Source: Unio delphinus (lineage: Eukaryota > Mollusca > Bivalvia > Unionida > Unionidae). From it: a DNA stretch of 64,000 nucleotides. The first letter of the stretch is position 1, and each line of letters starts with the position of its first letter. The stretch is taken from NCBI GenBank assembly GCA_029339505.1, contig JAQISU010000210.1, forward strand, positions 10,027,501-10,091,500, in the 5' to 3' direction. The notes under the pieces were generated by a model. It saw only the letters and a list, made by a program, of their open reading frames with translations, ran no database searches and was not told where the DNA came from. The position numbers were made by a program, and so were the translations under genes. Below are positions 3,084 through 32,177 of the stretch, in pieces.

Positions 3084-3123
3084 GGTCCTTTTCAGGGCCA
3101 CTCCAATTATTTCGAAAAGAAAT
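3084..3123 (+). terminator. Histone-mRNA-type 3' stem-loop plus downstream element
   Basis: GGTCCTTTTCAGGGCC at 3084-3099 forms a six-pair stem with a UUUC loop. The 5' flank CACCAAC and 3' flank ACTCCA resemble histone mRNA flanks. A purine-rich CGAAAAGAAAT at 3113-3123 sits where the U7-bound histone downstream element would. The 25 bases at 3114-3138 recur exactly at 30909-30933 after another stem-loop. There is no AATAAA between the stop at 3050 and this site. Confidence 0.8.
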
Positions 3124-3162
3124 ACTATGTCAATTGCCTATTTCAATGAAAACTCAAAAGTC

Positions 3163-3168
3163 CTTTAT
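3163..3168 (-). terminator. Possible poly(A) signal for the minus-strand zinc-knuckle gene
   Basis: AATAAA on the minus strand about 190 bases past the stop of the gene ending at 3356. It lies between the convergent genes, so the minus-strand gene appears to use ordinary polyadenylation while its plus-strand neighbour uses the stem-loop. Confidence 0.4.
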
Positions 3169-3355
3169 TTTTTTAAAAACCCATGATGTACGTGTGAGTG
3201 AATGAATGTGTGAGTGTAGGTAATTATACTATCAAATCAAAACCAAGAGACACTTACGTTTTTTCTCTCTGGTGTATTCTAGTACAAACGTCACAATTCA
3301 ATATCACAACATAACACAAGACCACTTTAAAAAAGTTCATAGGTTTTCTTCTGTT

Positions 3356-3805
3356 TCACTCTTTCTGTTTTTTCATTTTCTTTACTGTCACAGCTTTTTC
3401 TTTTTCTTCCTCTTCACTTTCGTTTCGTCTTCTTTTCTTGTGAACGTGACGGGGTTCTTCCTTGGGGGAGGGTACCTCTTCTTCCTCCTGTTCAGAATTT
3501 CTTTCCTCCTCCTCCTTCTCCTCCTCCTGTTCCTGTTGTTTCTTAGGGCAGTTTGGAGACCAATGTCCTTTCTCTTTACAATAATAACAGGTATCTTGAC
3601 TTTTGTCTCTATTGTAGCCTTTTTTATTTTTGTCACGATCTGAACATTCTGTAGCCCAATGTCCTTTCTTCTTACAGATATAGCAAGTATCTTGACTTTT
3701 ATCTCGATAGGAAGGAGAGTAGGCCGTCGGCTGGTCTGACGAAAACTTTCGTATGACCCCACGTAAAGCTCTAATGAGAAGTTCCACTTCTGTAGGTTCT
3801 TTCAT
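3356..3805 (-). CDS. Double CCHC zinc-knuckle protein, probable nucleic-acid binder
   Basis: 149 residues from the first true ATG (3805), about 55 bases past a minus-strand TATA box at 3858-3869. Two zinc knuckles are plain, CYICKKKGHWATEC and CYYCKEKGHWSPNC, each C-x2-C-x4-H-x4-C, linked by a repeated RDKSQDTC stretch that points to internal duplication. The C-terminal half is highly acidic (Glu runs) and ends in Lys/Arg clusters. Such knuckles bind single-stranded nucleic acid in retroviral Gag and cellular proteins. It is divergent from the DNA polymerase gene, sharing a 135-bp promoter region. A Gag-type knuckle protein is not part of the usual Polinton core set. Confidence 0.8.
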   Translation of the reverse strand: MKEPTEVELLIRALRGVIRKFSSDQPTAYSPSYRDKSQDTCYICKKKGHWATECSDRDKNKKGYNRDKSQDTCYYCKEKGHWSPNCPKKQQEQEEEKEEEERNSEQEEEEVPSPKEEPRHVHKKRRRNESEEEEKEKAVTVKKMKKQKE

Positions 3806-3940
3806 CGTTCTGGTCAATGTGAGAGTGAAAGGAATACTGAAAGGTTAGACACTCACCCTTTATATATATGCACGGATCGAACATGAATATATAGGGGTTA
3901 TGGTCTTTAAAAGGTAGTCATTTGACTTTTTGCAGACAAG
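3806..3940. promoter_or_regulatory. Divergent promoter, zinc-knuckle gene and DNA polymerase
   Basis: Two TATA-like boxes point opposite ways: CTTTATATATAT (minus use) at 3858-3869 and ATATATAGG (plus use) at 3887-3895, the latter about 50 bases before the polymerase ATG. Their spacing is only about 20 bases, so the two genes probably share control. Confidence 0.6.
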
Positions 3941-6900
3941 ATGAAAAGACCACATCATGTTGTGGAGAAAGGAAAAGACAGTAAGAGACAGAAACGTAAT
4001 GTATCGCCTAGCACAGTAACTGAAGTCTTGGCTCAAATTCATGCCAGTGATTTTGAAGATGACATGAGTGAGCCCGAATCTACACCCAGACAATCCACGT
4101 CCAAGCAAAGTGCACCACCCTTAGTAAACCCTGAAAATTACTATCACATTCGAGAGACAGAAAAGCGTTCCTCTCGAAAATTTAGAACAACGGCTTACAC
4201 GTATGCCGTAAAGTTTAAAGATTTCAAGGCCAATGTACCTTTGGAGAATACAGAAGGGTTCATTACTGAGGTGTGGGATTCTGTATTAACTGCATTGAAA
4301 CAGCAATGTCAAGCCAAAGAAGACGATCGCTTGAGACTTTCTATTCATCACGATAATTTAAAGTCTCCCGTTTGGATCGAGTTTACTAGCCCATCAGAAT
4401 TAACACCTTCCAAAGTCATCGACAAAATTCAACATGTGCAACAATCCAACGACAAGTTTCACATTGACGATGGAAAAGCCACACTGTTTATGACCCACGT
4501 GTCTCTTCCCCAGGGGACAGGACGCAAAAAAGTATTATTGGTCGACAACCTTCGCAGCATGAAGCGAAGCCTCGTCCAAATTAACAATCCTCAAGACAAG
4601 ATGTGTTTAGCCCGTGCTGTCGTCGTGGGACGAACGTATGTCAACAAGAACGACACGACAGAATGGAAAAGAGCCTGGAAAACTATTCAACGATCGGACC
4701 GAGCCAAACAACGAAGTGAAGCAGAACTTCTGTTACAGCAAGCGGGGATATCCAAAGACACCCTTAGCGGCATTCCAGAAATGCAAAAATTGCAAGACGT
4801 CTTGTCTCCACATTACACTTTGAAAGTACACCCTCAAGAAGTGCGTGGACCTCTTTTGTTTCGAGGCCACGATTTCAAAGACGGAAAATACATTCACGTC
4901 TATCATCACGATGGTCATTTTGATACCATTACCAGTATCACTGGATTTCTGAAATTCAGTTACTACTGTGAAAAATGTGACTATGGTTATAACAATCGAG
5001 AACAACACAAGCATTGTGGATCGAAATGTGAGGGATGTTTGGCCTCTCAACCTTGTCTGGACCAAGGACAAGAAAGAGTGCATTGCCTTGTGTGTCAGCG
5101 CACTTTTGTCAGTCTTACCTGTTACCAACAACATTTGAAGATGCAAGGTTCACAGCAGAAAAGTGCTTGTCAACTGCTGAGATTGTGCCCTACTTGTGGC
5201 CAAGGCATACGTACTAGTAATGCCAAGTTTCACGTTTGTCGAGGGAAGAAACGATGTCACATTTGTCGCCAAATTGTGGACTTGGAGCACGAATGCTTCA
5301 TTCAAAAATATCAACCCCAACCAAAAGATACCCAGAAGAAAGGGAATTTTATCTTTTTTGATTTCGAATGCATGCAAGAGACCGGTATTCACATTCCCAA
5401 TTTCTGCGTGGCTCACCGTGCGTGCGAGCAGTGCATCCAAGAACCTATCTTTAGTCATTGCCCTTACTGCAGCAAGATTCCTGGAGGACGTGAAAAAATC
5501 TTTCGAGGGTCAAATACGCTAGCCGATTTTGCCCAATGGATCCTAAATCCCATCGACGAAACGTGGAGTCCAGAAGACATCGAACGTTACGGAGAGTGTC
5601 ATCGCCATGCCACGGTCATGGCTCACAATTTCTCGGGATACGATGGGCAATTTCTGCTCAGATACTATGCGGAACAAAGTACCGAACGGCCTCAAGTGAC
5701 TTTAAACGGAGTCAAAATCATTTCTATGCAAGTAGGACAAGTACAGTTTAAAGATTCGATGTGTTACTTGGCCATGCCATTAAGTCGCATGCCTAAAACG
5801 TTTGGAATGACAGAAATGGCTAAAGGTTATTTTCCACACTTTTTTAATACCAAAGCCAATCAACATGCCGTTCTACCCCATTTGCCGGAGGCTGACGACT
5901 ACGACCCCGACAACATGCGCACCGAACAACGAGAAGCTTTCTATGCTTGGTACCAGACTCACGCCTCGGACCCTTTTGACTTTCAAGAAGAAATGTTAAA
6001 GTACTGTCGATCTGACGTGGACATTTTACGACGTTGCTGTGGAAAATTTCGAGAATTGTTCATGGAATACGGAGGGATCGATCCTTTGAAAGAAGCTTGT
6101 ACCATCGCCAAAGCGTGTTCCTTAGTGTACCGAAAACGCTTTATGCCTGAAAATACTCTAGCGGTCATCAGTCCTCAAACGACAAATTTTGTCAAACGTC
6201 AATACTCGGTCAAAGCCTTACGCTGGCTCCATTACTTGTGCGACAAGGAAGACAAATGGATCCAACACGCTCGCAACGGAGGAGGCGAAAAGACCATCGG
6301 AACGTATTCGGTAGATGGTTGGGACTTAGAAAACCCTCAGATTGTGTACGAGTTTAACGGATGTTTATTTCACGGATGTCCCCTATGCTACCCTCAACGA
6401 GACACCAAAAATCAGTTTTTACAACGAACCATGGAAGACTTGTACCAGACCACGTGTCAGCGACGTTTGAAGTTAGAACAGCAAGGGTACCAGGTGGTGG
6501 AAATGTGGGAACACGAGTACAATCAGCGTTTGAAAACTGATCCCGAGTTTAAACGCATCGTAGAAAGTTACAAGTGGGTGGACCCCCTGAACCCTCGGGA
6601 TAGTTTGTACGGAGGACGAACGAATGCTACTTGTTTGCTGTACCAAGCGGACGAGGAGAAGGGAGAAGAAATCAAATACTTGGACGTGTGTTCGTTGTAT
6701 CCTTACGTGTGCAAATATTGTCACTTTCCCGTAGGGCATCCAGAATTGATGACAGAACACATTGATTTGGACCACATTCGACAGTACGAAGGATTGATCA
6801 AGTGTAAAGTCTTACCACCCACAGACTTGTACCATCCAGTATTACCTCACCATTGCCAAGGAAAACTGATGTTTCCTTTGTGTCGCACATGTGCCGAAAC

Positions 6901-8011
6901 GTGCAACCAAGACCAACCTTGTCATCACACTCAGGAAGAACGTGCCTTGACAGGAACGTGGGTGAGCGTGGAATTGTTTAAAGCTCTGGACCTGGGATAT
7001 CAACTGTTAGAAGTGTACGAAATTTACCACTTTCCCAAAACACAACAATACTGCAAGGGCGACGAGAGACAGAAAGGTATTTTTGCAGACTACGTGGATG
7101 CTTTTTTAAAACTAAAACAAGAAGCTAGTGGCTATCCTTCCTGGTGTCACACTCCCGAAGACCAAAAGATATTCAAAGAAAAATATCGGGAGCAGGAAGG
7201 TATCACTTTAGACCACATCGAGAAAAATGAAGGAAGGCGATCGTTTGCCAAAGTGATGCTCAATTGTTTGTGGGGTAAAATGGCACAACGTCCGTCTTTA
7301 CCCAAGACGGAGTATTTGTCCGAGCCGTCTCGCTACTTCCAGATGATTCACAACCCAACCAAAGTCATCAAACACGTGGACGTCATTCGTGAGGACTTGA
7401 TCTTAGTCAATTACGAAGAAGAACTAGACTTTGTAGAAGCCGACACATTTGGAAATGTCATCATTGCGGCTTACGTGACAGCCCACGCTCGCTTAAAATT
7501 GTACGAAGTGTTAGAACTGTTAGGAGATCGTGTGTTGTATTTTGACACGGACAGTTGCATTTACATTCACCGACCGAACCAGTGTAACCCTACCATCGAA
7601 GGAGACCGTTTAGGAGCCTGGACCGATGAACATCCCGACGACAAGATTCTATGTTTTGCAAGTGGCGGTCCTAAAAATTACGGCTACGAATACCGTGACC
7701 CACAAGGAAAAATGCACACTGAATGTAAAGTGAAAGGATTGACTCTTAATTATCGCACCAGTCAAGTGGTGAACTTTGACGTGCTACAAGAAGCCTTGCA
7801 GTCGGGACAGGATGAAACGTTTCAAGTGACTACCCACGAACCGCACAAGATTGTCCGTTTACCCACACACCAAATTGTTAGCCGACCTTTGGAAAAAGTC
7901 TACCAAATCGTGTACCAAAAGAGAGTACGACTTCCCAATCACTTCACTCTACCGTACGGTCACGTCGAAATTGGGCAGCATATAAAAAGGGACATTGTCC
8001 AAGACCAATAG
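3941..8011 (+). CDS. Protein-primed family B DNA polymerase
   Basis: 1356 residues; replicates the element's linear DNA with a protein primer. The 3'-5' exonuclease motifs are present: FDFE near residue 470, HNFSGYDGQF near 565, and YCRSDVDIL near 687. Polymerase motifs are also intact: DVCSLYPYV near 918 (motif A), KVMLNCLWGK near 1108 (motif B, with Leu-Trp where NxxYG is usual) and YFDTDS near 1200 (motif C). The long N-terminal region carries dense Cys/His pairs at about 343-450 (CEKCDYGY, CLVCQRTF, CPTCGQG, CHICRQ), likely several zinc-binding modules. The start is the first ATG, about 50 bases after a TATA box. The frame is uninterrupted. Length exceeds many Polinton polymerases (about 1000-1200), owing to the N-terminal extension. 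Confidence 0.98.
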   Translation: MKRPHHVVEKGKDSKRQKRNVSPSTVTEVLAQIHASDFEDDMSEPESTPRQSTSKQSAPPLVNPENYYHIRETEKRSSRKFRTTAYTYAVKFKDFKANVPLENTEGFITEVWDSVLTALKQQCQAKEDDRLRLSIHHDNLKSPVWIEFTSPSELTPSKVIDKIQHVQQSNDKFHIDDGKATLFMTHVSLPQGTGRKKVLLVDNLRSMKRSLVQINNPQDKMCLARAVVVGRTYVNKNDTTEWKRAWKTIQRSDRAKQRSEAELLLQQAGISKDTLSGIPEMQKLQDVLSPHYTLKVHPQEVRGPLLFRGHDFKDGKYIHVYHHDGHFDTITSITGFLKFSYYCEKCDYGYNNREQHKHCGSKCEGCLASQPCLDQGQERVHCLVCQRTFVSLTCYQQHLKMQGSQQKSACQLLRLCPTCGQGIRTSNAKFHVCRGKKRCHICRQIVDLEHECFIQKYQPQPKDTQKKGNFIFFDFECMQETGIHIPNFCVAHRACEQCIQEPIFSHCPYCSKIPGGREKIFRGSNTLADFAQWILNPIDETWSPEDIERYGECHRHATVMAHNFSGYDGQFLLRYYAEQSTERPQVTLNGVKIISMQVGQVQFKDSMCYLAMPLSRMPKTFGMTEMAKGYFPHFFNTKANQHAVLPHLPEADDYDPDNMRTEQREAFYAWYQTHASDPFDFQEEMLKYCRSDVDILRRCCGKFRELFMEYGGIDPLKEACTIAKACSLVYRKRFMPENTLAVISPQTTNFVKRQYSVKALRWLHYLCDKEDKWIQHARNGGGEKTIGTYSVDGWDLENPQIVYEFNGCLFHGCPLCYPQRDTKNQFLQRTMEDLYQTTCQRRLKLEQQGYQVVEMWEHEYNQRLKTDPEFKRIVESYKWVDPLNPRDSLYGGRTNATCLLYQADEEKGEEIKYLDVCSLYPYVCKYCHFPVGHPELMTEHIDLDHIRQYEGLIKCKVLPPTDLYHPVLPHHCQGKLMFPLCRTCAETCNQDQPCHHTQEERALTGTWVSVELFKALDLGYQLLEVYEIYHFPKTQQYCKGDERQKGIFADYVDAFLKLKQEASGYPSWCHTPEDQKIFKEKYREQEGITLDHIEKNEGRRSFAKVMLNCLWGKMAQRPSLPKTEYLSEPSRYFQMIHNPTKVIKHVDVIREDLILVNYEEELDFVEADTFGNVIIAAYVTAHARLKLYEVLELLGDRVLYFDTDSCIYIHRPNQCNPTIEGDRLGAWTDEHPDDKILCFASGGPKNYGYEYRDPQGKMHTECKVKGLTLNYRTSQVVNFDVLQEALQSGQDETFQVTTHEPHKIVRLPTHQIVSRPLEKVYQIVYQKRVRLPNHFTLPYGHVEIGQHIKRDIVQDQ

Positions 8012-8045
8012 TTCATTGTGACTAACACAGCCAAGCGAAAAGAAG

Positions 8046-8594
8046 ATGAATCCATTTAAACAGACATCATTCAAATTTGGGAATTCTCAAGTGGAGTGCG
8101 ATGCTAAACCTTACGATTGTAGTGATGCCAGGCGCTGTGACATTAGCGATTCAGCAGGATATCGTGGGAACTTTGCTATGACTACTACCCCTATATCTAC
8201 CCTGGAAAGTGATGCTGTGCGTGTCAAACCTGAGGGATGCGAAAGCGGTGCGACACGTTATCGTGGACTCCTAGGAATTTCACCGTACCTGCATCGAACA
8301 GAAGTGAGGAGAGTCGAATATTCGTTCCCGACGAGTTTGCCTGAATACTGTCACTTTAAAAGTCGATTCCAAACCTTCAAAGATAAATGGCCAAAATATC
8401 TGCCTGGACCAACTCCTGAAGAATTAGCCAGAGCTGGATTTTTCTACTTGGGCGAAGGAGATAAAGTCAAGTGTTTCAGTTGTGGTGTATCCATTTACGA
8501 GTGGGAAGAGAAAGATTCCGCTTACTTGGAACATGCTCGATGGTCTCCGAATTGTCAATACCTACCTTTAGTAGGACCTAGTGATTGGAAGTGA
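8046..8594 (+). CDS. BIR-domain (inhibitor-of-apoptosis type) protein
   Basis: 182 residues with one BIR domain at about 103-175. The zinc ligands C143, C146, H163 and C170 fit the family pattern C-x2-C-x16-H-x6-C; the upstream GFFYLGEGDKVKCFSCG stretch and R107 are also typical. There is no RING, CARD or second BIR domain. The N-terminal 75 residues are unrecognised, while residues about 77-94 resemble linkers next to BIR domains in animal IAPs. IAP-family proteins block caspases or act in innate signalling; baculoviruses and other large DNA viruses carry them. A role in restraining host cell death is inferred. It lies 34 bases after the polymerase stop, in the same direction. It may be an acquired host gene, since BIR proteins are not part of the Polinton core. 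Confidence 0.93.
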   Translation: MNPFKQTSFKFGNSQVECDAKPYDCSDARRCDISDSAGYRGNFAMTTTPISTLESDAVRVKPEGCESGATRYRGLLGISPYLHRTEVRRVEYSFPTSLPEYCHFKSRFQTFKDKWPKYLPGPTPEELARAGFFYLGEGDKVKCFSCGVSIYEWEEKDSAYLEHARWSPNCQYLPLVGPSDWK

Positions 8595-8606
8595 CACTAC
8601 TGCTCC

Positions 8607-8993
8607 ATGTCGTGTAACACACCTAGACCAGTATATAAACCCTCTCTAAAACATTATATTCAAGGATTACCACACGAATTGCAAGAGAAGATCTACAAGG
8701 ACGTTTGGCAGGGTCTTGCTAAAGAAAAATCGCAATGGGTGACTGTAGAACTTTTGTGTCGTGAAATTCACAAGAGGCAAGTGACAAAAATTAACCAACG
8801 TGTCAGATTTCTCTGGATCAAAGGTATTTTTTTGCTCTGTTTCCAATTTAGTACGTTTACCTCTGAAGATGCTTTGATCCTTCTTGACCGTTACCCTGAA
8901 TGGCAGTGGGACGAAATTACACGTTATATTAATCACTTTTGCTTTTTGTGCAAATTTAATTCTGTGTTTAATTCTGGGTTGAATCTACACTGA
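8607..8993 (+). CDS. Unknown protein, 128 residues
   Basis: Starts 12 bases after the BIR gene stop. The N-terminal third has a weak F-box-like look (GLPHELQEKIYKDVW), followed by a basic, amphipathic stretch and a hydrophobic segment near residues 68-82 (IKGIFLLCFQFS). No confident family. Tight packing and shared direction support it as a real gene; composition resembles its neighbours. Confidence 0.6.
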   Translation: MSCNTPRPVYKPSLKHYIQGLPHELQEKIYKDVWQGLAKEKSQWVTVELLCREIHKRQVTKINQRVRFLWIKGIFLLCFQFSTFTSEDALILLDRYPEWQWDEITRYINHFCFLCKFNSVFNSGLNLH

Positions 8994-9016
8994 TAGTCTT
9001 CGACCTAAAAAAGAAG

Positions 9017-9023
9017 TATAAAA
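9017..9023 (+). promoter_or_regulatory. A-run plus TATAAAA interior-gene box
   Basis: CTAAAAAAGAAGTATAAAAGAG belongs to the box class shared by interior genes at 9874, 10688, 11629, 11941, 12229 and 23153. Here it is only about 11 bases before the ATG at 9034, too close for a conventional TATA box serving that ATG, so it may drive the next gene (9259). Confidence 0.45.
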
Positions 9024-9033
9024 GAGAACGACC

Positions 9034-9252
9034 ATGCCACAACCTTTATCATTGGTGATCCAACAGATTCCGTGGAAGGATATCAATGAGAAGATTCACA
9101 CGGTGAAAGATTACGAACACTTATTGCAAGAACTGTACCCTATGAATTGGGGTCGACGTGTCGTGTGTGTTTTAGTGACTTGCTTTCTAGGATTTCGTTT
9201 ACCTGTCGATTCCTTGTGGACACTTTACGAACACTACCTATCAAAAAAATAA
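9034..9252 (+). CDS. Unknown small protein, 72 residues
   Basis: Mixed sequence with a short hydrophobic segment (VVCVLVTCFLGF) near residues 43-54, possibly a membrane segment. No domain recognised. It sits in a tight row of small same-strand genes, ending 6 bases before the next ATG. Confidence 0.5.
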   Translation: MPQPLSLVIQQIPWKDINEKIHTVKDYEHLLQELYPMNWGRRVVCVLVTCFLGFRLPVDSLWTLYEHYLSKK

Positions 9253-9258
9253 GACAGT

Positions 9259-9507
9259 ATGGTGACTCCTTTAAATGTCCACGAGAGACTTATTCTGTTC
9301 AAAGCCTTACGTTTTCATCTGGATACGTCTCGACCTTTCCAAGAAAAAAAGATTCGTCAACTTTTACGTACGGAAGCAGTGTACGAAGATGTGTGTGTAG
9401 CTTGTGAATTACACCCTCATTGGACAGATGTACGTGACTGGAAAAGTTGGGATTTTGAGGCTTGGACAAACGAAGTATCCCATTATGCCCAAGCGTTGTG
9501 TTCCTAA
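9259..9507 (+). CDS. Unknown small protein, 82 residues
   Basis: Soluble-looking and rich in His, Trp and charged residues; no recognised motif. Overlaps the following membrane-protein gene by 23 bases in another frame. Supported by packing and direction only. Confidence 0.5.
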   Translation: MVTPLNVHERLILFKALRFHLDTSRPFQEKKIRQLLRTEAVYEDVCVACELHPHWTDVRDWKSWDFEAWTNEVSHYAQALCS

Positions 9508-9856: not shown

Positions 9857-9865
9857 ACGTGTCTT

Positions 9866-25447: not shown

Positions 25448-26385
25448 ACAACACTATTAACCAATTTTACTTAACGTTACCCAGTGACAGTTCCATGGAG
25501 GTGTTTCCTAACAACACGTTGTGCTGTTACATGGCTAAATTACCTCAAACCATGCATTTGGATCAAGATGATCATTGGGAAGTAGCTTTAGTGGAAATAA
25601 TACACCCGACACAAATCAAAAACATCGTCGAAAATCAAAACACTTTTACAGTTGAAGTGTTTGACGAGCAATTGCAAAAAGCCTTAGACGCACGAGGTAA
25701 AGGTGGCGAAAAGAAATCAGATGGACCCCCAACTAAAGCCCTGTCCACTCATAAGTTCGTCATTCCTCCAGGTTATTATTTTAGTGGTCAACATTTAGTG
25801 AATACGATTGTAACCAGGTTCAATGTTGTGTTTGGTAAAGTCATGGAGTCCTTTGCAAACTCAAAAAACCCAAAAAGTGTAACCATTGAGTACTATTCAG
25901 TGTCTCGTCGACTCATGATGACATTTTCAGAGGAGAAAATGATGGCCATTACTTTTTGTCCTGAATTGTTTGATATTTTAGGTGGAGACGTCGAGATGCT
26001 CAAGAACAAAAAGCAAATACCAGGCATAACCAGTAACTCGGATTTTGCAAAATATTTTCGATTCCCTGTTGAATTGAACCAAGGTCTCAACTTGATGTTT
26101 GTGTACTCCGATGTGGTGGAGTACAATGTAGTAGGACACACCTCTGTACCGTTACTGCGTGTCATTCCTTTCAAAGTGGATTCTGACACTACCGATAAAG
26201 AGGAAGGTGGAAATACCAATCACGTTCACCGTGAATTTGTACATCCTCATTATTTACCCGTCAGTAAGTCGTATTTCGACAGTGTCAACATTTCTATAAA
26301 AGGAGAACTAGGACAAAATATTCCATTTACCAAAGGGAAAGTCACAGTGAAACTCCATTTTCAAAAACGATTCTCCAACAACTGA
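25444..26385 (+). CDS. Penton-like minor capsid protein (single jelly roll)
   Basis: 313 residues. The opening FYLTLPSDSSMEVFPNNTL, then FKVxL-like spacing replaced by CYMAKLPQ and WEVALVEI, is the signature start of Polinton minor capsid (penton) proteins. A conserved-looking FCPELFDILG and a C-terminal basic HFQKRF segment follow. The protein forms the fivefold vertices of the predicted virion. ATG overlaps the previous gene's stop; it precedes the pVI-like and hexon genes, the usual order. Confidence 0.93.
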   Translation: MNNTINQFYLTLPSDSSMEVFPNNTLCCYMAKLPQTMHLDQDDHWEVALVEIIHPTQIKNIVENQNTFTVEVFDEQLQKALDARGKGGEKKSDGPPTKALSTHKFVIPPGYYFSGQHLVNTIVTRFNVVFGKVMESFANSKNPKSVTIEYYSVSRRLMMTFSEEKMMAITFCPELFDILGGDVEMLKNKKQIPGITSNSDFAKYFRFPVELNQGLNLMFVYSDVVEYNVVGHTSVPLLRVIPFKVDSDTTDKEEGGNTNHVHREFVHPHYLPVSKSYFDSVNISIKGELGQNIPFTKGKVTVKLHFQKRFSNN

Positions 26386-26392
26386 AAAAGTG

Positions 26393-26833
26393 ATGTATCC
26401 TGTGTACCGAGGAGTCACTCGACAACGAGGACATGGCTTAGGAGATATGTTTAAATCAGCCTTTCGTTCTGTGGTCCCTGTTTTGAAACTGATGGTGACA
26501 CGAGGATTGCACGCCTTAAAAGATGCCGCATTGACTCACGGCAAAGATTTTCTCCACAATGTTCTCATTGACAAACAAAACCCAAAAGAAGCTTTTTTGA
26601 GAGCAGGCAAAAATGTCTTACTTCAAACGGGTAAAGAGATTTTGGGTCGACGAGAAAGTCCTATAAATGCCCTGAACGGTACCGAGTCTGACATTTCTGC
26701 TTCCCTGACGACACAGCAAGGACAAGGTAGAAAGCGACGACGAAGGCACCCTTTCAAAAGTCTCCGTGCCTCTAAAGTGAGAAAGACGAAGAAAAAAAGA
26801 ACCGCTCGAGACTTAGACATTTTTGATTATTAA
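26393..26833 (+). CDS. Basic Gly/amphipathic virion protein, possibly pVI-like
   Basis: 146 residues from ATG 26393. N-terminal amphipathic helices (GLGDMFKSAFRSVVPVLKLMV, HALKDAAL), a variable middle, then a strongly basic stretch GRKRRRRHPF and KVRKTKKKR. Placement between penton and hexon with this composition is typical for Polintons and adintoviruses; comparison with adenovirus protein VI (membrane-lytic, capsid-lining) is an inference from layout and amphipathicity. Ends 29 bases before the major capsid ATG. Confidence 0.7.
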   Translation: MYPVYRGVTRQRGHGLGDMFKSAFRSVVPVLKLMVTRGLHALKDAALTHGKDFLHNVLIDKQNPKEAFLRAGKNVLLQTGKEILGRRESPINALNGTESDISASLTTQQGQGRKRRRRHPFKSLRASKVRKTKKKRTARDLDIFDY

Positions 26834-26861
26834 AAGTGAAGAGAAAAAACATAAAGAAAAA

Positions 26862-28211
26862 ATGATGCACCAAGAATCTTGTGCCTGTTCCAAGTCGGAA
26901 CTAGATCTCTTTGCCATGCCACCCACGATGATGACCATGCAAGAAGCCCAATGGGTCGAATTTCATCCCGTCTCCTCTTTGACGGATTCAGCTCCCATCG
27001 AGTTTGAAATCAAAGGACAACCCGAAGATTACATCGATCTCAACAACAGTTACTTGTATTTGAAAGTGAAAGTGAGTAGAACGGACAACACCGATCCAGC
27101 AGCCGATGCCCAAGTAGCTCCCGTCAACAATTTCATGCATTCTTTGTTCAGCGAAGTGGATTTGTACATGAATAACAAACTGATCAGCAGTAGCACGGAT
27201 ACTTACCCTTACCGAGCGTACCTCGAAAATCTCTTGACGTACGGAAAAGAAGCCAAGAACACTCATTTAGATGCTTGCGTGGTATGGAAACCTGACACCG
27301 CAGATACATTTAACGACACAGTCTTGTCCGTAGCAGCAGCAGCTGCTGAGGGCAGCAATCCAGCCATTCCTGCCAATCCTCACAATGTGGGTTTTAACGA
27401 GCGTCGAAAGAAAATTCTGCGAGGACGTAGTTTAGAACTGTTCGATCGTTTGCATTTGGACATGTGGTTTCAAGAGAAGTATTTGCTGAACGGAGTAGAT
27501 ATTCGCTTGAGACTGAATCGTAGCAGTGCTGCTTTCCATTTGATGGCTGATGCCAACACATACAAAACCATCATCCAAGAAGCCAGGTTATACGTGCGTC
27601 GTGTGGAAGTGTTACCTAAAGTGGGAAATGATATCAGTCACACTTTGAGCAGAACGACAGCCAAGTATCCGATACGACGCGTGGAAGTCAAAACTTTCAC
27701 CATTGCCGCTGGGCTCCGATCTAAGATCGAAGATCATCTGTTCCAAGGCCAGTTACCCAAACGTTTATTCATCGGTATCGTGACCAATGCAGCCTTCAAC
27801 GGTACCCACGATAAAAATCCTTTCGAGTTTAAGCACTGCGGAGTAACCAAAATCGAAGTCAGTCGCGATGGCAAAACTTTGTGTACCCGACCCTTCGAAC
27901 CCAACTTTGCCCTGAAGAATTACTTGAGGTCGTACTTGTCACTGTACGAAGCCACAGGACAATTAGGAACCAACACCAGTCACGGTATTTCCTACGACGA
28001 TTATGCAGGAGGTTACGCGTTGTGGGCTTTTGATTTCACTCCAGACCAAGGCAGCGACGAGGGACATTTCCACCCTATAAAATCTGGACAACTGCGTGTG
28101 GAACTTCAGTTGGCAGCAAATCTTGACCATACGGTGAATGTCATTCTGTATGCTGAATTCGATAATACCATAGAAATCAACATTTTGAGAGAAGTCATTC
28201 TAGACTATTAG
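26862..28211 (+). CDS. Major capsid protein, double jelly roll (hexon-like)
   Basis: 449 residues from ATG 26862 (a second ATG follows at once). Motifs usual for Polinton major capsid proteins are seen: PIEFEIKGQPEDYIDLNNSY near 45-65, VNNFMHSLFSEVDLYMNNKL near 90-110, and TYPYRAYLENLL soon after. Later WFQEKYLLNGVDIRLRLNRS near 200-220 and the C-terminal RVELQLAANL. Forms the trimeric capsomers. A frame-maintaining Ala-rich stretch near 155 is a variable loop. Intact. Confidence 0.96.
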   Translation: MMHQESCACSKSELDLFAMPPTMMTMQEAQWVEFHPVSSLTDSAPIEFEIKGQPEDYIDLNNSYLYLKVKVSRTDNTDPAADAQVAPVNNFMHSLFSEVDLYMNNKLISSSTDTYPYRAYLENLLTYGKEAKNTHLDACVVWKPDTADTFNDTVLSVAAAAAEGSNPAIPANPHNVGFNERRKKILRGRSLELFDRLHLDMWFQEKYLLNGVDIRLRLNRSSAAFHLMADANTYKTIIQEARLYVRRVEVLPKVGNDISHTLSRTTAKYPIRRVEVKTFTIAAGLRSKIEDHLFQGQLPKRLFIGIVTNAAFNGTHDKNPFEFKHCGVTKIEVSRDGKTLCTRPFEPNFALKNYLRSYLSLYEATGQLGTNTSHGISYDDYAGGYALWAFDFTPDQGSDEGHFHPIKSGQLRVELQLAANLDHTVNVILYAEFDNTIEINILREVILDY

Positions 28212-28216
28212 ACATT

Positions 28217-28546
28217 ATGGAAGACCCTTGTCCTTCTTTGAATAGTGGAGAATCCATGGAATGGGAGGTTACAGAAAAAGCAAACCCTCAAGACCAAAAA
28301 GAAGAAGTAGTGATCATGCAATCCAGATGGCCAGAACAGGAACAACAGTTAGTGGCTTGTTTTGCACAACACTTGGAAGATAAAATGAGGGAGATGATTA
28401 AAAAAGATTGTTATGGATGTCAAATCGATCATCCCAGTCAAATTCAACACGATAAATGTATGATGATGAGTCAAGAAGAAAAATTGGACAATTATCTGAA
28501 CGAAGCTTGGAGTCTCATCTCCGAAGAAGCCGTGTTACTTCAGTGA
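28217..28546 (+). CDS. Small acidic protein with CYGCQIDHPSQ motif, ended by an early TGA
   Basis: 109 residues. Acidic N-terminus, then KDCYGCQIDHPSQIQHDKCM, a Cys/His cluster like that of a short conserved protein in many Polintons, possibly zinc-binding; function unknown. It starts 5 bases after the capsid stop. The TGA at 28544-28546 is followed in the same frame by 55 further open codons of coding-like sequence (see next entry), so this copy is either truncated by mutation or read through. AATAAA at 28547-28552 abuts the stop. Confidence 0.75.
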   Translation: MEDPCPSLNSGESMEWEVTEKANPQDQKEEVVIMQSRWPEQEQQLVACFAQHLEDKMREMIKKDCYGCQIDHPSQIQHDKCMMMSQEEKLDNYLNEAWSLISEEAVLLQ

Positions 28547-28714
28547 AATAAAGGCTTACGTGATCATTCCTCTCCTCCATTGTTTGCTCGAGAAATTGAT
28601 CGCATCGAAGCTCTCTTGGCACAGAGTAAAGAGACGAAGCAAACCATCAGTTACTTGTCAGACCGTTTCAAACAAAAAGTCTGGATTGAATTGATGACTT
28701 ATCATCACCTGTGA
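28547..28714 (+). pseudogene. In-frame continuation after the TGA of the CYGC protein
   Basis: 55 sense codons in the frame of the preceding gene, with a helical charged composition (FAREIDRIEALLAQSKE, FKQKVWIEL), then TGA at 28712-28714. It has no good start of its own. Expected if the ancestral protein was about 165 residues and a point change created the TGA, or if stop-codon readthrough makes an extended form. Confidence 0.55.
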
Positions 28715-28752
28715 AGAAAGGAGAGAAAAAAAACAAGGCTACACAACAAAAA

Positions 28753-29307
28753 ATGGATACTTGGGAACTTTATTATCTTTTGAACCGTAGTTCGTACACT
28801 GCTTCTTGGAATCCTGTCGTGTGTGCTAAAGATGAACTACCTCATCGCAAACCTCAAGAGAATCAAGCTTATGTCATCAACACAGATGACAGTCATCTTC
28901 CAGGAACTCACTGGGTTGCAGTCTACTTTCCTCAAGGATGTGCGGAGTATTTTGATTCGTATGGATTGCCTCCTTTCGAAGATGATATCATTGACTTTAT
29001 GAGAAGAAATGCTCAGACGACACGATTCAATAATGTGAAATTACAAAGCACAGATTCTATGGTGTGTGGACAATATTGTATCTATTATCTGCATCATCGC
29101 AGTCTTGGATATTCTTTAGAACATTTAGTGACTTATTTTGATCGTCATTCGTCTCGAAACGATGACAAAGTAGATCGATGGTTTTGTGACCATTATGGCT
29201 ATCTGTTGTCTTTAGCTAGGAAACGTAGTGTACATCAATCGCCCAATGACTTCCAACAGTGGAAATCTCAATTTAATTCACAACGTTGTCAACCATGTCA
29301 AAGATAA
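28753..29307 (+). CDS. Adenain-type cysteine protease
   Basis: 184 residues from ATG 28753; upstream codons in the frame are A/G-rich leader. Catalytic set in adenain order: H53 in GTHWVAVYF, D68 in EYFDSYG (Glu or Asp in the family), oxyanion Gln98 in KLQSTD, and Cys105 in VCGQYC; the seven-residue Gln-Cys spacing equals that of adenovirus protease. Processes virion precursors during maturation. Length is near the family's usual 200. It is the last of the interior gene cluster and is followed by a conventional AATAAA. Confidence 0.95.
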   Translation: MDTWELYYLLNRSSYTASWNPVVCAKDELPHRKPQENQAYVINTDDSHLPGTHWVAVYFPQGCAEYFDSYGLPPFEDDIIDFMRRNAQTTRFNNVKLQSTDSMVCGQYCIYYLHHRSLGYSLEHLVTYFDRHSSRNDDKVDRWFCDHYGYLLSLARKRSVHQSPNDFQQWKSQFNSQRCQPCQR

Positions 29308-29326
29308 TGTATTAGTGTTATGGAAG

Positions 29327-29400
29327 AAAGACATGTTTGTTCTTTGAAATAATGTTTGTTCTTTGAAATAATGTTTGTTATTTGAATAAAAATGTTGTGT
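29327..29400 (+). terminator. Short repeat and poly(A) signal after the protease gene
   Basis: Three copies of a roughly 20-base unit (ATGTTTGTTCTTTGAAATA) precede AATAAA at 29385-29390 and a GT-rich ATGTTGTGTTTTG. This is an ordinary cleavage/polyadenylation site for the capsid-protease cluster, in contrast to the stem-loops that follow the end genes. Confidence 0.65.
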
Positions 29401-29520
29401 TTTGAAAACCAATGCGTCTGTCGTTTGTTTTACATTTGTATTCATATAAATGCTCTTTGACTTTTCTTTCTATCCCTCACATCAAACTATCTAAACGTTT
29501 CAAAACCCTAAACCGTCGAG

Positions 29521-29560
29521 GGGTGTTTTCCATCACGTCCGCGCTTGAACCATATAAAGC
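29521..29560 (+). promoter_or_regulatory. Right-end promoter cassette, copy 1
   Basis: GGGTGTT followed by TTCCATCACGTCCGCGCTTG at 29528-29547, then TATA box CATATAAAGC at 29551-29560. The ATG is at 29613. The same block stands before the next gene (30300-30340), and a diverged one before the last (31465-31503). A downstream AGTCTGGCCATCCATTGTTTG is also shared with copy 2 and probably marks the transcription start region. Confidence 0.8.
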
Positions 29561-29612
29561 AGGGGTAGTCTCCAGTCTGGCCATCCATTGTTTGACTCAT
29601 CCTCCTACGAAG

Positions 29613-29981
29613 ATGTGCTCAAGACTAGCTAAGCTGAACGAAGCTTATGTCACTCTGCATCGTATCAGACACAATCTGATGCCAAAGCCTGAAGAGATAG
29701 AGAATGTGAGAATGCTACAAGAAACGGAAGACCTCATAGAAGAACTCTTCAGAGAGGAAATTCAAAAAGAGAAAGATGAATGGACTGAGAAGTATCGACT
29801 TCAAAAGCAGCAGAGAGAGCAGAGAGAACAGCAGCAGCAGCAGCAGCAACAGCAACAACAGCAGCAGGACCCAGACAGAAGTTTTGTCGACTGTCGTGTG
29901 GATACGAAAGAGTTCTCTTTCTCATTCCGAAGAAGCAGACCCTATCGTGTAGCCAAACGAGGACGCAATCTTAGACGATAA
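29613..29981 (+). CDS. Coiled-coil protein with polyglutamine tract, right-end gene 1
   Basis: 122 residues from the first ATG after the TATA box. Helical, charged N-terminal 85 residues (LQETEDLIEELFREEIQKEKDEW), a run of about 13 Gln, then a basic Arg-rich C-terminus (FRRSRPYRVAKRGRNLRR). No known domain. It shares promoter block and histone-type 3' end with the next two genes, and all three begin with short leucine-rich helices, suggesting a gene family grown by cassette duplication. Confidence 0.75.
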   Translation: MCSRLAKLNEAYVTLHRIRHNLMPKPEEIENVRMLQETEDLIEELFREEIQKEKDEWTEKYRLQKQQREQREQQQQQQQQQQQQQDPDRSFVDCRVDTKEFSFSFRRSRPYRVAKRGRNLRR

Positions 29982-30017
29982 AAGATTGCCATCCTTCCTC
30001 GTACACACACAAAAAAC

Positions 30018-30054
30018 AGCCCTTTTCAGGGCTACCCAATATTCTCGAAAAGAA
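30018..30054 (+). terminator. Histone-mRNA-type 3' stem-loop plus downstream element
   Basis: AGCCCTTTTCAGGGCT at 30018-30033: six perfect pairs with a UUUC loop, followed by ACCCA, the typical histone flank after which cleavage occurs. Purine-rich TCGAAAAGAA at 30045-30054 fits the downstream element. It lies 36 bases past the stop at 29981. Confidence 0.85.
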
Positions 30055-30225
30055 TTAATCATTCAATTTGCTCATGGTATGTGAGGAAGTTAGAAAAAAA
30101 TAGAAGTGAGTCTATAATCACTATCTCATTTTACTTTTGTTTTGAAGTGCGTCTATAAGCACAGCGTATTTTTTTTCAAAATAACTTGTTCAATGTATAA
30201 TTATTATGAGTCAAGTATAAAGTGT

Positions 30226-30340
30226 GGGGTGTTTTCTTTTAAGTCCGCGTGTTTTGTTTTTTGGTAATGATAGGGATAATGTAAGTTTTTGGATCTAGGG
30301 GGTGTTTTCCATCACGTCCGCGCTTGTGCTATATATAAAA
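30226..30340 (+). promoter_or_regulatory. Right-end promoter cassette, copy 2, with an upstream degenerate copy
   Basis: Exact copy of the cassette 1 block at 30300-30326 (TTCCATCACGTCCGCGCTTG at 30307-30326), TATA box ATATATAAAA at 30331-30340, ATG at 30388. A degenerate copy of the block (GGGGTGTTTTC...AAGTCCGCG) without a good gene behind it lies at 30226-30251. Confidence 0.8.
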
Positions 30341-30387
30341 AGCTCTCGTCAGTCTGGCTACCCATCGTTGGCGCATCAACACCAAAG

Positions 30388-30852
30388 ATGAATAGAGTAC
30401 AGAAATTAAGAGAACTTCAAATGCATCTGGAGAATGCTAGACGTCTCCTGGACGAACTGGCAATGGAGGCCAAAGAAGAAGAGACCAGAGTTAAAGAAGA
30501 GGAGGAGAGGAAAAAGAAAGAAGAGGAGAAGGAAATGAAAATGTCAATTTTGCCTCACCGCATGATGAGGCAAACTAGTGAAGTCAAGCCTATAGTGAGG
30601 ACACCTTCACCAGAACCAGTTCGTCCACTACAGGCGCAGCCCCCACTGCCTCAGCCGCAACAACCACAGCCTCATCCACGGTTGCGGAATAGAGTCAGAA
30701 ATGAAGAGACTTTCACTATCCCTCAAACAGAAGATTGGGATAGTGAAGCCACTCATTCTCCCTCTGCGCTCCCAATCACAAGAGTGAATTGGGAGAATGA
30801 TTGGAGTAGGAGATGTGTGTGTGGGGCTAGACCTGGGAGATGCCAGCATTAG
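30388..30852 (+). CDS. Coiled-coil, Pro/Gln-rich protein with Cys-rich C-terminus, right-end gene 2
   Basis: 154 residues. Coiled coil at about 5-55 (LRELQMHLENARRLLDEL, then Glu/Lys repeats), a Pro/Gln-rich middle (PLPQPQQPQPHPR), acidic/Trp patches and a C-terminal CVCGARPGRCQH that could bind a metal. No known domain; no LxCxE. Same cassette architecture as its neighbours. The N-terminal LxxLxxxLExAxxLLDEL pattern is loosely like that of gene 1. Confidence 0.75.
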   Translation: MNRVQKLRELQMHLENARRLLDELAMEAKEEETRVKEEEERKKKEEEKEMKMSILPHRMMRQTSEVKPIVRTPSPEPVRPLQAQPPLPQPQQPQPHPRLRNRVRNEETFTIPQTEDWDSEATHSPSALPITRVNWENDWSRRCVCGARPGRCQH

Positions 30853-30879
30853 CCAGGTGTAATTTGAAGTTTTAAAAAC

Positions 30880-30915
30880 AGCCCTTCTCAGGGCTACCCA
30901 AATAACAAGAAAAGA
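30880..30915 (+). terminator. Histone-mRNA-type 3' stem-loop, variant loop
   Basis: AGCCCTTCTCAGGGCT at 30880-30895: the same six-pair stem with a UCUC loop, keeping U at loop positions 1 and 3, followed exactly by ACCCA. CAAGAAAAGAA at 30906-30916 is very close to the histone downstream element consensus. It lies 27 bases past the stop at 30852. Confidence 0.85.
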
Positions 30916-30989
30916 AATACTATGTCAATTGCCAATGGGTGTGAGAGAGGAGTAGTGTGATTATAAACACTGACTCTATTTAGATGGTA

Positions 30990-31425
30990 TATGGTGTGAT
31001 TTTGGATAGTATATAGTATGGTTTGTTTTGGCTGCTTCCCCGTGTGTGTGGTTAGTATAGGGTGTGATTTTGGATAGTATATAGTATGGTTTGTTTCGGC
31101 TGCTTCCCCGTGTGTGTGGTTAGTATAGGGTGTGATTTTGGATAGTATATAGTATGGTTTGTTTTGGCTGCTTCCCCGTGTGTGTGGTTAGTATAGGGTG
31201 TGATTTTGGATAGTATATAGTATGGTGTGTTTTGGCTGCTTCCCCGTGTGTGTGGTTAGTATAGGGTGTGATTTTGGATAGTATATAGTATGGTTTGTTT
31301 TGGCTGCTTCCCCGTGTGTGTGGTTAGTATAGGGTGTGATTTTGGATAGTATATAGTATGGTGTGTTTTGGCTGCTTCCCCGTGTGTGTGGTTAGTATAG
31401 GGTGTGATTTTGGATAGTATATAAT
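30990..31425 (+). repeat. 68-bp tandem repeat upstream of the last right-end gene
   Basis: Units start at about 30993, 31061, 31129, 31197, 31265, 31333 and 31401, so the period is exactly 68; six are nearly complete and the last is partial. Core words: GGTGTGATTTTGGATAGTAT and GGCTGCTTCCCCGTGTGTG. Only single-base differences are seen, so it is recent or homogenised. Could be an enhancer, a replication element or a simple minisatellite. Confidence 0.95.
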
Positions 31426-31464
31426 AGGATTTGTGAATAGTATCTAATATGACAAGTGAATGTA

Positions 31465-31503
31465 GAGGTGTTTACTTTCACGTCCGTGCTTAAGATATAT
31501 ATA
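31465..31503 (+). promoter_or_regulatory. Right-end promoter cassette, copy 3 (diverged)
   Basis: GAGGTGTTTACTTTCACGTC followed by CGTGCTT at 31465-31491, then TATA box GATATATATA at 31494-31503. Relative to copies 1 and 2 it keeps the GGTGTTT and CACGTCCG words with several substitutions. The ATG is at 31549. Confidence 0.7.
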
Positions 31504-31548
31504 CGCAATCGTCGGTCCTTGGAGCCATTCAATTTTGAACACATCAAG

Positions 31549-32121
31549 ATGAATTTTGAATTGTTTATCCAACTCCGAGACAGCTGGTTTGGGATCCTTG
31601 ATGCAGAATATCAAGTGAAAAGACTTGAGGAAGAATTTCAGAGTAACCATGGCTTTGTAAGCCAACTGAAATTAGCAAGAGATTTATTAGAAGGTATGAT
31701 AGAGGAGGAAGACCAGAAATTAAGAAGACGTATTAAAAGAAAATATATAAGAATAGGGGACTTGAAGCAAGCACTTGATCATGTCATCAAAGTCAGGTGT
31801 TTTCTAGAAGAAACATTACATCTGATAGAGTGGGAATATGTGAAGTGGGGTCTAGACAGGCTAAAGAAAGCAGAAGCAATGATGAGAATGGTGATGGAAG
31901 AACAGGTGATCCAGATTAAAGAAAACTGGTCTAAGGAGAGAAAGGAAAAAAAGAACAAAAAGACGAAAGAGGACTTTGATCTACTCAATCTAAGATGGAT
32001 GAGAGTTCAGGAAAAGTTTAGAGCTATGGGACATCCTGACTGGATTCCCGAAGAAGAAAAGAAGAAAAAAACAGGAATCATTGGTAAAATCAAAAGGTGG
32101 TGGAACAATGGCAGAAAATAA
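31549..32121 (+). CDS. Helical charged protein, right-end gene 3
   Basis: 190 residues, almost entirely predicted helix/coiled coil with many Glu, Lys, Leu and Trp (KRLEEEFQ, LARDLLEGMIEEED, WEYVKWGLDRLKKAEAM), ending in a basic amphipathic tail KKKKTGIIGKIKRWWNNGRK. No domain recognised. AATAAA overlaps the stop (32117-32122), but the histone-type stem-loop follows 20 bases later at the inner edge of the right terminal repeat. Confidence 0.75.
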   Translation: MNFELFIQLRDSWFGILDAEYQVKRLEEEFQSNHGFVSQLKLARDLLEGMIEEEDQKLRRRIKRKYIRIGDLKQALDHVIKVRCFLEETLHLIEWEYVKWGLDRLKKAEAMMRMVMEEQVIQIKENWSKERKEKKNKKTKEDFDLLNLRWMRVQEKFRAMGHPDWIPEEEKKKKTGIIGKIKRWWNNGRK

Positions 32122-32141
32122 AAGAAGAAGAAGTATCCAAA

Positions 32142-32177
32142 GGCCCTTTTCAGGGCCACTCATAGGTCTCGAAAAGA
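32142..32177 (+). terminator. Histone-mRNA-type 3' stem-loop at the right terminal repeat
   Basis: GGCCCTTTTCAGGGCC at 32142-32157: six perfect pairs, UUUC loop, 5' flank TATCCAAA (as in histone CCAAA), 3' flank ACTCA, then CGAAAAGA near 32170-32177. This is the mirror of the left-end stem-loop at 1905-1920; the terminal repeat boundary falls inside the stem. Confidence 0.85.

Follow-up and report, generated by a model that had tools for sequence, protein, structure and literature searches.

Histone-type 3' ends and promoter elements predicted at the end genes of a Polinton in Unio delphinus

The Polinton family represented in the window, by which we mean the whole 64-kb stretch of DNA analyzed, very probably runs its five end genes like replication-dependent histone genes, with mRNAs that would be S-phase-coupled and non-polyadenylated. 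This reading, drawn from sequence, extends an original prediction concerned with gene 3' ends. New beyond that prediction are putative histone promoter elements at three right-end genes, H1-type at E2, E3, and E4 and H4-type at E3.

Overall organization of the element

The window Polinton contains a B-family DNA polymerase (PolB, matching Pfam DNA_pol_B_2), a retroviral-type integrase (rve plus chromo), and an A32-type ATPase (Pox_A32), the features by which Polinton/Maverick elements are recognized, together with a BIR. Its 365-bp terminal repeats are enclosed by inverted matched arms (1552-1923 and 32139-32510; 372 bp, 99% complementary), and the TATATA read at both ends lies amid AT-repeat sequence. 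The capsid and protease genes are presumed from their look, position, and order; Pfam gave no supporting match for the ORFs named as major and minor capsid proteins and adenovirus-type protease. PolB gave two weak matches against phage records. This copy is broken by a Gypsy insertion. The element and its end genes are as follows.

1559..32503, no strand assigned: Polinton element, with terminal repeats 1559-1923 and 32139-32503 and TATATA at either side
1948..2181, minus strand: gene E0, ORF of 77 aa, basic, directed outward into the left terminal repeat
2400..3050, plus strand: gene E1, ORF of 216 aa, charged, copies found elsewhere
29613..29981, plus strand: gene E2, ORF from internal ATG 29613, 122 aa, charged, copies found elsewhere
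30388..30852, plus strand: gene E3, ORF of 154 aa, charged, copies found elsewhere
31549..32121, plus strand: gene E4, ORF of 190 aa, charged, directed outward into the right terminal repeat, copies elsewhere

None of E0-E4 has a Pfam histone match (E<=1), so these are not histone genes, though they are apparently regulated like them. LxCxE motifs are likewise absent from E0-E4, and the fold model of E4 is helical, of low confidence (mean pLDDT 50), and uninformative.

Hairpins following the end genes

Exact matches to RGYCCTTYTCAGGRCYAC number five in the window, each where the original prediction had placed a hairpin, and 0 in 100 shuffles. Each hairpin is followed by GAAAAGA, a candidate histone downstream element.

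1905..1920, minus strand: hairpin a, GGUCCU-UUUC-AGGGCC, after E0, within the left terminal repeat; RF00032 25.1 bits (1881-1925)
3084..3099, plus strand: hairpin b, GGUCCU-UUUC-AGGGCC, after E1, 3' flank ACTCC; RF00032 29.8 bits (3079-3124)
30018..30033, plus strand: hairpin c, AGCCCU-UUUC-AGGGCU, after E2; RF00032 34.9 bits (30013-30059)
30880..30895, plus strand: hairpin d, AGCCCU-UCUC-AGGGCU, after E3; RF00032 33.2 bits (30875-30919)
32142..32157, plus strand: hairpin e, GGCCCU-UUUC-AGGGCC, after E4, within the right terminal repeat; RF00032 34.9 bits (32137-32181)
1885..1891, minus strand: GAAAAGA, candidate downstream element of hairpin a, +14
3114..3120, plus strand: GAAAAGA, candidate downstream element of hairpin b, +15
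30047..30053, plus strand: GAAAAGA, candidate downstream element of hairpin c, +14
30909..30915, plus strand: GAAAAGA, candidate downstream element of hairpin d, +14
32171..32177, plus strand: GAAAAGA, candidate downstream element of hairpin e, +14

All five hairpins combine a six-pair stem, whose second pair is G-C, with a four-base loop carrying U at positions 1 and 3. They lie on the sense strand, 27, 33, 36, 27, and 20 nt beyond the stop codon (a-e), and the predicted purine-rich element starts 14, 15, 14, 14, and 14 nt beyond the stem. The flanks were described beforehand as ACCCA/ACTCA; at 3084 the 3' flank is instead ACTCC. The combination of hairpin, AC flank, and GAAAAGA occurs five times in the window and in none of 60 dinucleotide shuffles. 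The hairpin descriptor by itself finds 7 sites, where shuffles give 1.1 on average and 4 at most. In a scan with the Rfam histone stem-loop model RF00032 (gathering score 34 bits), the window gave matches solely at these five sites, with no sixth at E<=5. Hairpins c and e exceed the gathering score and the other three fall below it.

Preserved pairing despite base changes had also been claimed. The six-pair stems stand in all five, but covariation among them is too slight to count as strong evidence: a single pair differs on both sides, and 62 of 500 shuffles did as well on the covariation score. Moreover, hairpins a and e are twins inside the terminal inverted repeats, and the five are therefore not independent. 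The proposed absence of the hairpin from interior genes held for 16/16 interior ORFs examined in the window.

The position of two of the five hairpins within terminal repeats would suit a signal acting at the DNA level, in replication or packaging rather than in mRNA. Against this, three hairpins are located away from the repeats, every one of the five follows closely on a stop codon in sense orientation, and host histone genes possess the same module; such a role is barely credible.

Comparison with the host histone genes

The likeness to replication-dependent histone 3' ends that had been predicted extends to the histone genes of the host itself, in both stem variant and GAAAAGA offset. Host histone genes carry the GGCCCU/GGUCCU stem variant found in the window hairpins, with GAAAAGA at +14/15. 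GAAAA lies at +13..17 in 8/8 host sites (H2A counted twice and the match L015 included) and in 5/5 window sites, and a TTGCC/ATGCC block follows further downstream in most modules. The RF00032 scores of host histones (29.2-41.5 bits) overlap those of the window (25.1-34.9), and host H4, at 29.2, is below gathering, as are sites a, b, and d.

For U7 snRNA, the Rfam U7 model found no match in the host genome, and its control also matched nothing anywhere. A U7 pattern search returned 120 matches, of which six were inspected and none was convincing; at one match, L081, the downstream stem-loop is better than 98.5% of shuffles. By impression, one of the pattern matches lies in integrase-like sequence and many in a ribosomal-looking tandem array. 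A human U7 sequence pairs no better than shuffles.

Hairpins in other Polinton copies

The searched host genome is the 2.5-Gb source genome of the window. Among 74 scored RF00032 matches, 65 fall in Polinton copies, 7 at histone genes (3 of these assigned on the basis of repeat spacing), 1 next to an H2B fragment, and 1 is unassigned; 69 of the 74 listed reach the gathering score. L015 was rejected as a histone-gene match, as it merely adjoins a 25-aa H2B-like match on the opposite strand. An E4 or E0 relative directly precedes 61 of the 65 Polinton-copy matches, including an E4 match at each of L017 and L055, and E0 relatives directly precede 14 of the 68 scored matches outside C15. GAAAA occurs at +13..17 in 57/61 and 4/6 sites of other copies, compared with 1.6% of random 60-mers.

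The genome has 6,245 exact matches to the hairpin pattern and 0 to its reversed control; among the first 100 matches listed the layout is often the same, the hairpin types recurring in repeated order in clusters. With such abundance, the transposon copies could draw off SLBP or U7 and thereby interfere with host histone mRNA, the timing of expression being secondary. This would require massive transcription and is very unlikely as the main explanation; it is compatible with histone-like control of the end genes.

Stem variants across copies stay paired (GGUCCU/AGGACC, GGCUCU/AGAGCC, AGCCCU/AGGGCU) in a search that itself required pairing. In E3 copies that were not hairpin-selected, pairwise identity is 0.87 at the hairpin, 0.76 in the coding sequence, and 0.91 at +43..+80. 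In E1 copies chosen likewise, the hairpin (0.65) is less conserved than the coding sequence (0.81), and some copies are without it. In several unselected hairpins a pair is broken or a key base lost. Conservation in unselected copies is thus not hairpin-specific.

AATAAA or ATTAAA lies within 60 nt upstream of 41/70 hairpins in loci fetched outside C15, and AATAAA spans the stop codon of window E4, which leaves room for polyadenylated ends. Interior genes are followed by too few poly(A) signals for their mode of ending to be judged.

Histone-type promoter elements upstream of E2, E3, and E4

Four candidate promoter elements resemble those of host histone genes.

29521..29544, plus strand: H1/H2B-type promoter element of E2, 23/24 identical to the host H1 promoter, just upstream of a TATA box
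30300..30323, plus strand: H1/H2B-type promoter element of E3, 23/24 identical to the host H1 promoter, just upstream of a TATA box
31466..31489, plus strand: H1/H2B-type promoter element of E4, diverged, 19/24 with ACGTCCG kept, just upstream of a TATA box
30233..30256, plus strand: H4-type promoter element, the second element upstream of E3, 22/24 identical to the host H4 promoter element

The best score among 60 shuffles was 18/24. The TATA box follows the H1-type element by 7-9 nt at E2, E3, and E4, compared with about 5 nt at host H1 and 27 at host H2B. ACGTCCG is present in the 250 nt preceding E2, E3, and E4 and in those preceding 0/16 interior ORFs. The GTCCG-type promoter elements of histone genes H1, H2B, and H4 resemble the HINFP/HiNF-P site. 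In other copies, exact ACGTCCG within 250 nt upstream was found for 8/29 E4, 1/3 E3, 0/4 E2, 0/12 E1, and 0/13 E0 matches; the promoter element is not constant across copies. These putative promoters of E2, E3, and E4 form a line of evidence independent of the hairpins.

Virophages are related to Polintons, and the hairpins might accordingly be a generic 3' signal, like that of polyadenylation in mimivirus and the virophage Sputnik, and not histone-type. To our knowledge that signal has no downstream element. The window hairpins match host histone ends and the Rfam histone model in sequence and spacing, GAAAAGA included, are confined to end genes in the window, and are accompanied by host histone promoter elements, all of which makes a generic signal highly improbable.

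A further possibility is that an ancestor gained histone-gene flanks by recombination and that the signals persist by copying, unused. Modules are alike beyond the hairpin, in the TTGCC/ATGCC block, and E2 and E3 have 5' and 3' flanks in common; duplication therefore clearly played a part. The E3 downstream sequence as conserved as its hairpin, and the decayed hairpins, would also fit disuse. On the other hand, the five genes have no mutual coding similarity by blastn and yet each carries a hairpin 20-36 nt past its stop codon, the stem variants of other copies stay paired, though by a search demanding it, and promoter and 3' element flank the same genes in the order expected of a gene. We consider unused remnants unlikely.

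A model for end-gene expression

If the end genes are run like histone genes, host SLBP would bind the end-gene hairpin and U7 snRNP would pair near GAAAAGA, the pre-mRNA being cleaved a few nucleotides past the stem to give short non-polyadenylated mRNAs. Their synthesis, export, and translation would fall mainly in S phase, and they would decay once DNA synthesis stops. The products, perhaps regulatory or early proteins, would then appear at just the time when the cell is able to replicate DNA, and the interior replication and capsid genes would use another route. The histone regulatory sequence was probably captured from a host genome and then spread among end genes.

As far as we know, the SLBP/U7 route is more or less exclusive to replication-dependent histone mRNAs. 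It is likely, at somewhat lower confidence than the histone-like control itself, that the transposon family took over the whole histone programme, promoter and poly(A)-free 3' end, to drive S-phase expression of non-histone genes of its own. Non-histone messages would then compete for SLBP and U7, and the family may be the genome's most numerous user of histone-type ends. If true, a virus-like element would thereby have a novel means of tying gene expression to S phase, which would explain why end-gene transcripts could escape poly(A)-selected RNA data. The copies also supply naturally occurring variants of hairpin and downstream element with which SLBP and U7 specificity could be studied.

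Relation to known systems

Our literature searches turned up no account of histone-type gene ends in Polintons; the terms histone, stem-loop, and hairpin are absent from the main text of PMC8097293 and PMC4028283 by term search. In IMG/VR, searches with MCP, PolB, a PolB piece, and an integrase alignment found no relative, and the hairpin pattern gave 0 matches. Six contigs with the integrase pattern were rejected as Polintons, none being supported by tblastn, and the histone stem-loop was absent (E<=0.1) from the five of them scanned.

In its terminal repeats, PolB, integrase, and packaging ATPase, the window element is like Polinton/Maverick (adintovirus-like) elements. Its hairpins recall the mimivirus/Sputnik signal, likewise a hairpin at the ends of genes in small DNA viruses (PMC6723459); that signal, however, is described as a polyadenylation signal specific to mimivirus and is without histone-type sequence. 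The SLBP/U7 route is described for animal replication-dependent histone mRNAs in the relevant passages of PMC7614891 and PMC9756948. The window gene ends are like those of metazoan replication-dependent histone genes in the six-pair stem, the U-rich four-base loop, the AC(C/T/A)CA-type flank, the purine-rich element about 14 nt on, and the hairpin position 20-36 nt past the stop. The upstream elements are similarly like the host H1 and H4 promoters (23/24 and 22/24 bases), but they precede non-histone genes. Unlike histone genes, those carrying these signals in the window are the non-histone end genes of a virus-like transposon.

Histone-type 3' ends of the Polinton end genes

As judged from their sequence, the five short end genes (E0 to E4) of the Polinton in the window are very probably expressed like replication-dependent histone genes; our confidence is slightly lowered because promoter counts are low in other copies and because one further locus, L015, is not a histone match. 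The element and its end genes are arranged as follows.

Polinton, its end genes and the inserted retrotransposon (window coordinates)
1559-32503: Polinton, ~31 kb including a ~10-kb Gypsy-type retrotransposon
1948-2181, minus strand: E0, reads outward
2400-3050: E1, hairpin gene
~12679-23030: Gypsy-type LTR retrotransposon inserted into the Polinton, with RT, RNase H and integrase domains in pol
29613-29981: E2, hairpin gene
30388-30852: E3, hairpin gene
31549-32121: E4, reads outward

An exact pattern built from the five hairpins matches the 64-kb window at just the five predicted places (1905-1920 on the minus strand; 3084-3099, 30018-30033, 30880-30895 and 32142-32157 on the plus strand) and has no match in shuffles. 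RF00032, the Rfam histone 3' stem-loop model, recovers the same five sites with 34.9, 34.9, 33.2, 29.8 and 25.1 bits, two lying above and three below its curated cut-off of 34 bits, and finds no sixth site at E<=5 in the 64-kb window. All five hairpins are located on the sense strand, 20-36 nt from stop codon to stem start, and each is followed by GAAAAGA starting 14 or 15 nt 3' of the stem. A combined descriptor (hairpin, AC flank and GAAAAGA) gives five matches in the window and none in 60 dinucleotide shuffles. The predicted absence of the hairpin from interior genes is also seen, in all 16 interior ORFs looked at in the window. Two details of the original prediction need adjustment: the ACCCA/ACTCA flank does not hold at 3084, where it is ACTCC, and the claim of selection-like pairing is softened, covariation among the five being weak. 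The outermost pair of hairpins belongs to the terminal inverted repeats, each being a copy of the other.

The element and its neighbours

The ends of E0 and E4 lie within the terminal repeats or at their edge. At 1577-1863 and 32202-32485, these repeats are composed of internal 35-bp and 58-bp repeats of the GCGACAAGGGAAA type, and a tandem array with a 68-bp unit occupies 30987-31462, between E3 and E4. Pfam supports PolB, an integrase with chromodomain, an A32-type ATPase and, at 8046-8594, a protein with an inhibitor-of-apoptosis (BIR) domain (E 4.3e-24); the genes that we take to encode capsid and protease are named from look and order alone. The Gypsy LTRs are direct copies of 1 kb, starting at 12679 and 22013. 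The insertion appears to truncate the ORF at 12291-12683, so the window copy is probably inactive.

A second Polinton-like element, a distant one, is represented at 43501-45177 by fragments with an integrase and an A32-type ATPase. No RF00032 match lies near them; the hairpin feature is not universal among Polinton-like elements here. In addition, the minus-strand ORF at 36668-38104, in which Pfam recognises the receptor domain 7tm_1 (E 1.8e-32), is probably a host gene.

Promoters of the right-end genes

The histone-type reading of the gene ends is supported, and it is extended by promoter evidence, an addition beyond the original prediction. The three right-end genes E2, E3 and E4 have in common an upstream block that is, by sequence likeness, a host histone promoter element, and that presumably resembles a HINFP site. 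Particularly, a 24-base stretch from the host H1 promoter has 23 identical positions upstream of both E2 and E3 and 19 upstream of E4; the best of 60 shuffles reaches 18, and the closest unrelated site elsewhere in the window 16. E3 is also preceded by a second block, which shares 22 of 24 positions with the H4 promoter element of the host (shuffles <=18). In a BLASTN comparison of five host histone promoters with the window, the right-end promoter sites come first, with E values of 8.9e-6 (H1), 3.5e-5 (H4) and 0.009 (H2B); the next best match anywhere has 0.034, and no match of the H2A or H3 promoter is better than 0.53.

In E2, E3 and E4 the motif ACGTCCG precedes the start codon by 69-78 nt, and none of the 16 interior ORFs has it in the 250 nt before its start; the sole other plus-strand occurrence of the motif in the window (7288) is within the PolB gene. 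E0 and E1 have no ACGTCCG. Their divergent common upstream region (2181-2400) differs from the promoters of E2-E4, containing a TGACGTCA site and CCAAT boxes, and the two genes are possibly under different control. The promoter element is variable among other copies: ACGTCCG is present within 250 nt upstream of 8/29 E4, 1/3 E3, 0/4 E2, 0/12 E1 and 0/13 E0 matches, and the H1-type element, at 18/24 or better, in 15 of the 68 loci outside contig C15 and six of ten inner flanks.

Hairpins across the genome

In the window's own assembly (2.5 Gb), RF00032 gave 74 matches at E<=0.001, which are the best matches rather than all, 75 of 434,796 candidates having been scored. They comprise 65 Polinton matches, seven histone matches, one beside a histone fragment and one without assignment. 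The analysis covered all 68 matches outside contig C15, plus the initial 19 kb of that contig, which holds three of its six. Directly 3' of an E4 relative (47) or an E0 relative (14) lie 61 of the 68. Among the others, L011 adjoins a Polinton PolB and has terminal-repeat similarity, L029, L046 and L050 have terminal-repeat similarity only, and L045 is an H2B gene. At L015 the neighbour of the scored hairpin is a 25-aa H2B-like match on the opposite strand, and no coding match was found for the hairpin itself; two H2B-like 3' modules apparently stand tail to tail there, one with the 25-aa H2B end. The remaining locus (L043, one of the 74) carries a histone-type stem-loop whose surroundings match neither a histone nor a Polinton nor the terminal repeats. 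Contig C15 holds a histone cluster: tblastn identifies H2A, H2B, H3 and H4, and we take a further gene for H1 from its look. All three matches examined there follow H2A, and the other three, from the 6,817-base repeat spacing, are inferred to be histone as well.

The exact pattern RGYCCTTYTCAGGGCYAC, a strict one that misses hairpin variants, has 6,245 genomic occurrences (3,106 on one strand, 3,139 on the other), against 0 for the reversed control. The first 100 sites listed, all on contigs C1 to C5, form 42 clusters, 19 of them with at least three hairpins. Their recurring order is an E0 type on the minus strand, an E1 type ~1.2 kb on where present, an E2 type (UUUC loop, AGCCCU stem) at ~17.3-17.8 kb, an E3 type (UCUC loop) 0.86-0.96 kb past it in 13 of 17 adjacent pairs, and an E4 type ~1.2 kb further. 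Some clusters deviate, and the full five-type order is seen in two of the 42. In part of one such cluster, relatives of E2, E3 and E4 are 97, 90 and 95% identical, each ending at its own hairpin.

Copies selected without reference to the hairpin

Within the fetched loci, C-terminal ends of end genes away from the scored match were graded on an 11-point hairpin score (stem pairs, key bases and flank). Scores of at least 10 were obtained for 6/11 E1 (four perfect), 10/16 E3 (two perfect), 0/4 E2, 1/1 E0 and 1/3 E4 ends. The low scorers include visibly decayed hairpins of E3 (L034, L028) and E1 (L019), and no hairpin is visible at E1 in L013, L018, L022 and L074. Inner flanks of ten copies, taken regardless of any E2 hairpin, gave E2 matches in four loci, three with an E2-type hairpin (L083, L088, L091) and one where none was found (L086); L090 has the hairpin without an E2 match. 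A low-scoring call in L085 was taken as chance. The interior gene ends seen in these flanks, MCP and o28217 (L087), PRO (L086, L091) and o26393 (L089), carry no hairpin.

Conservation in E4 copies, which were chosen by hairpin, is 0.98 for the hairpin, 0.72 from stop to hairpin and 0.85 for coding sequence. The hairpin and coding values are 0.87 and 0.76 in E3 copies (0.91 further downstream) and 0.65 and 0.81 in E1 copies. Since this picture is mixed, conservation alone does not carry the case.

Proposed 3'-end formation and relation to host histone genes

In histone mRNA, SLBP sits on the stem-loop, U7 snRNP pairs downstream and CPSF73 cuts, giving S-phase messages without poly(A), as outlined in PMC9756948 and PMC7614891. 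By analogy, SLBP would bind the stem-loops of the end genes, U7 snRNP would pair downstream of the stem and CPSF73 would cleave the transcripts, yielding mRNAs that lack poly(A) and are produced in S phase. AATAAA or ATTAAA is present within 60 nt upstream of 41 and within 200 nt downstream of 17 of the 70 hairpins in fetched loci. Use of both end types by the element is possible, because a human histone gene with both is known (PMC9756948).

Titles and abstract openings yielded no description of histone-type ends in Polintons, adintoviruses or other transposons, and our claim of novelty is confined to that literature: a known kind of element and a known gene-end signal, not found described in combination. 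The terms histone, stem-loop and hairpin are absent from the main text of PMC8097293 and PMC4028283; in PMC11071296, which speaks of histone-like proteins in other animal viruses, stem-loop and hairpin are absent.

Host histone stem-loops read GGCCCU-UUUA/UUUU/UUUC-AGGGCC or GGUCCU-UUUC-AGGACC, followed by GAAAA at +14/15 and mostly by TTGCC or ATGCC between about +26 and +37. This last block lies, to our knowledge, outside the textbook histone-end layout, and is a third block common to most host histone and Polinton ends. L043 has neither motif in the ranges tabulated.

Downstream motifs at host and Polinton ends (GAAAA at +13..17; TTGCC/ATGCC at +25..45)
Host histone (H2A counted twice, L015 included): 8/8; 6/8
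Window: 5/5; 4/5
Other copies, E0/E4/terminal-repeat sites: 57/61; 49/61
Other copies, E1/E3 sites: 4/6; 5/6
Random (60-mers for GAAAA): 1.6%; 3.0%

Host H4 scores 29.2 bits with RF00032 and so falls under the cut-off, as do the window hairpins of E3, E1 and E0. In GAAAA and TTGCC/ATGCC, then, the element agrees with the host histones beyond the universal stem-loop.
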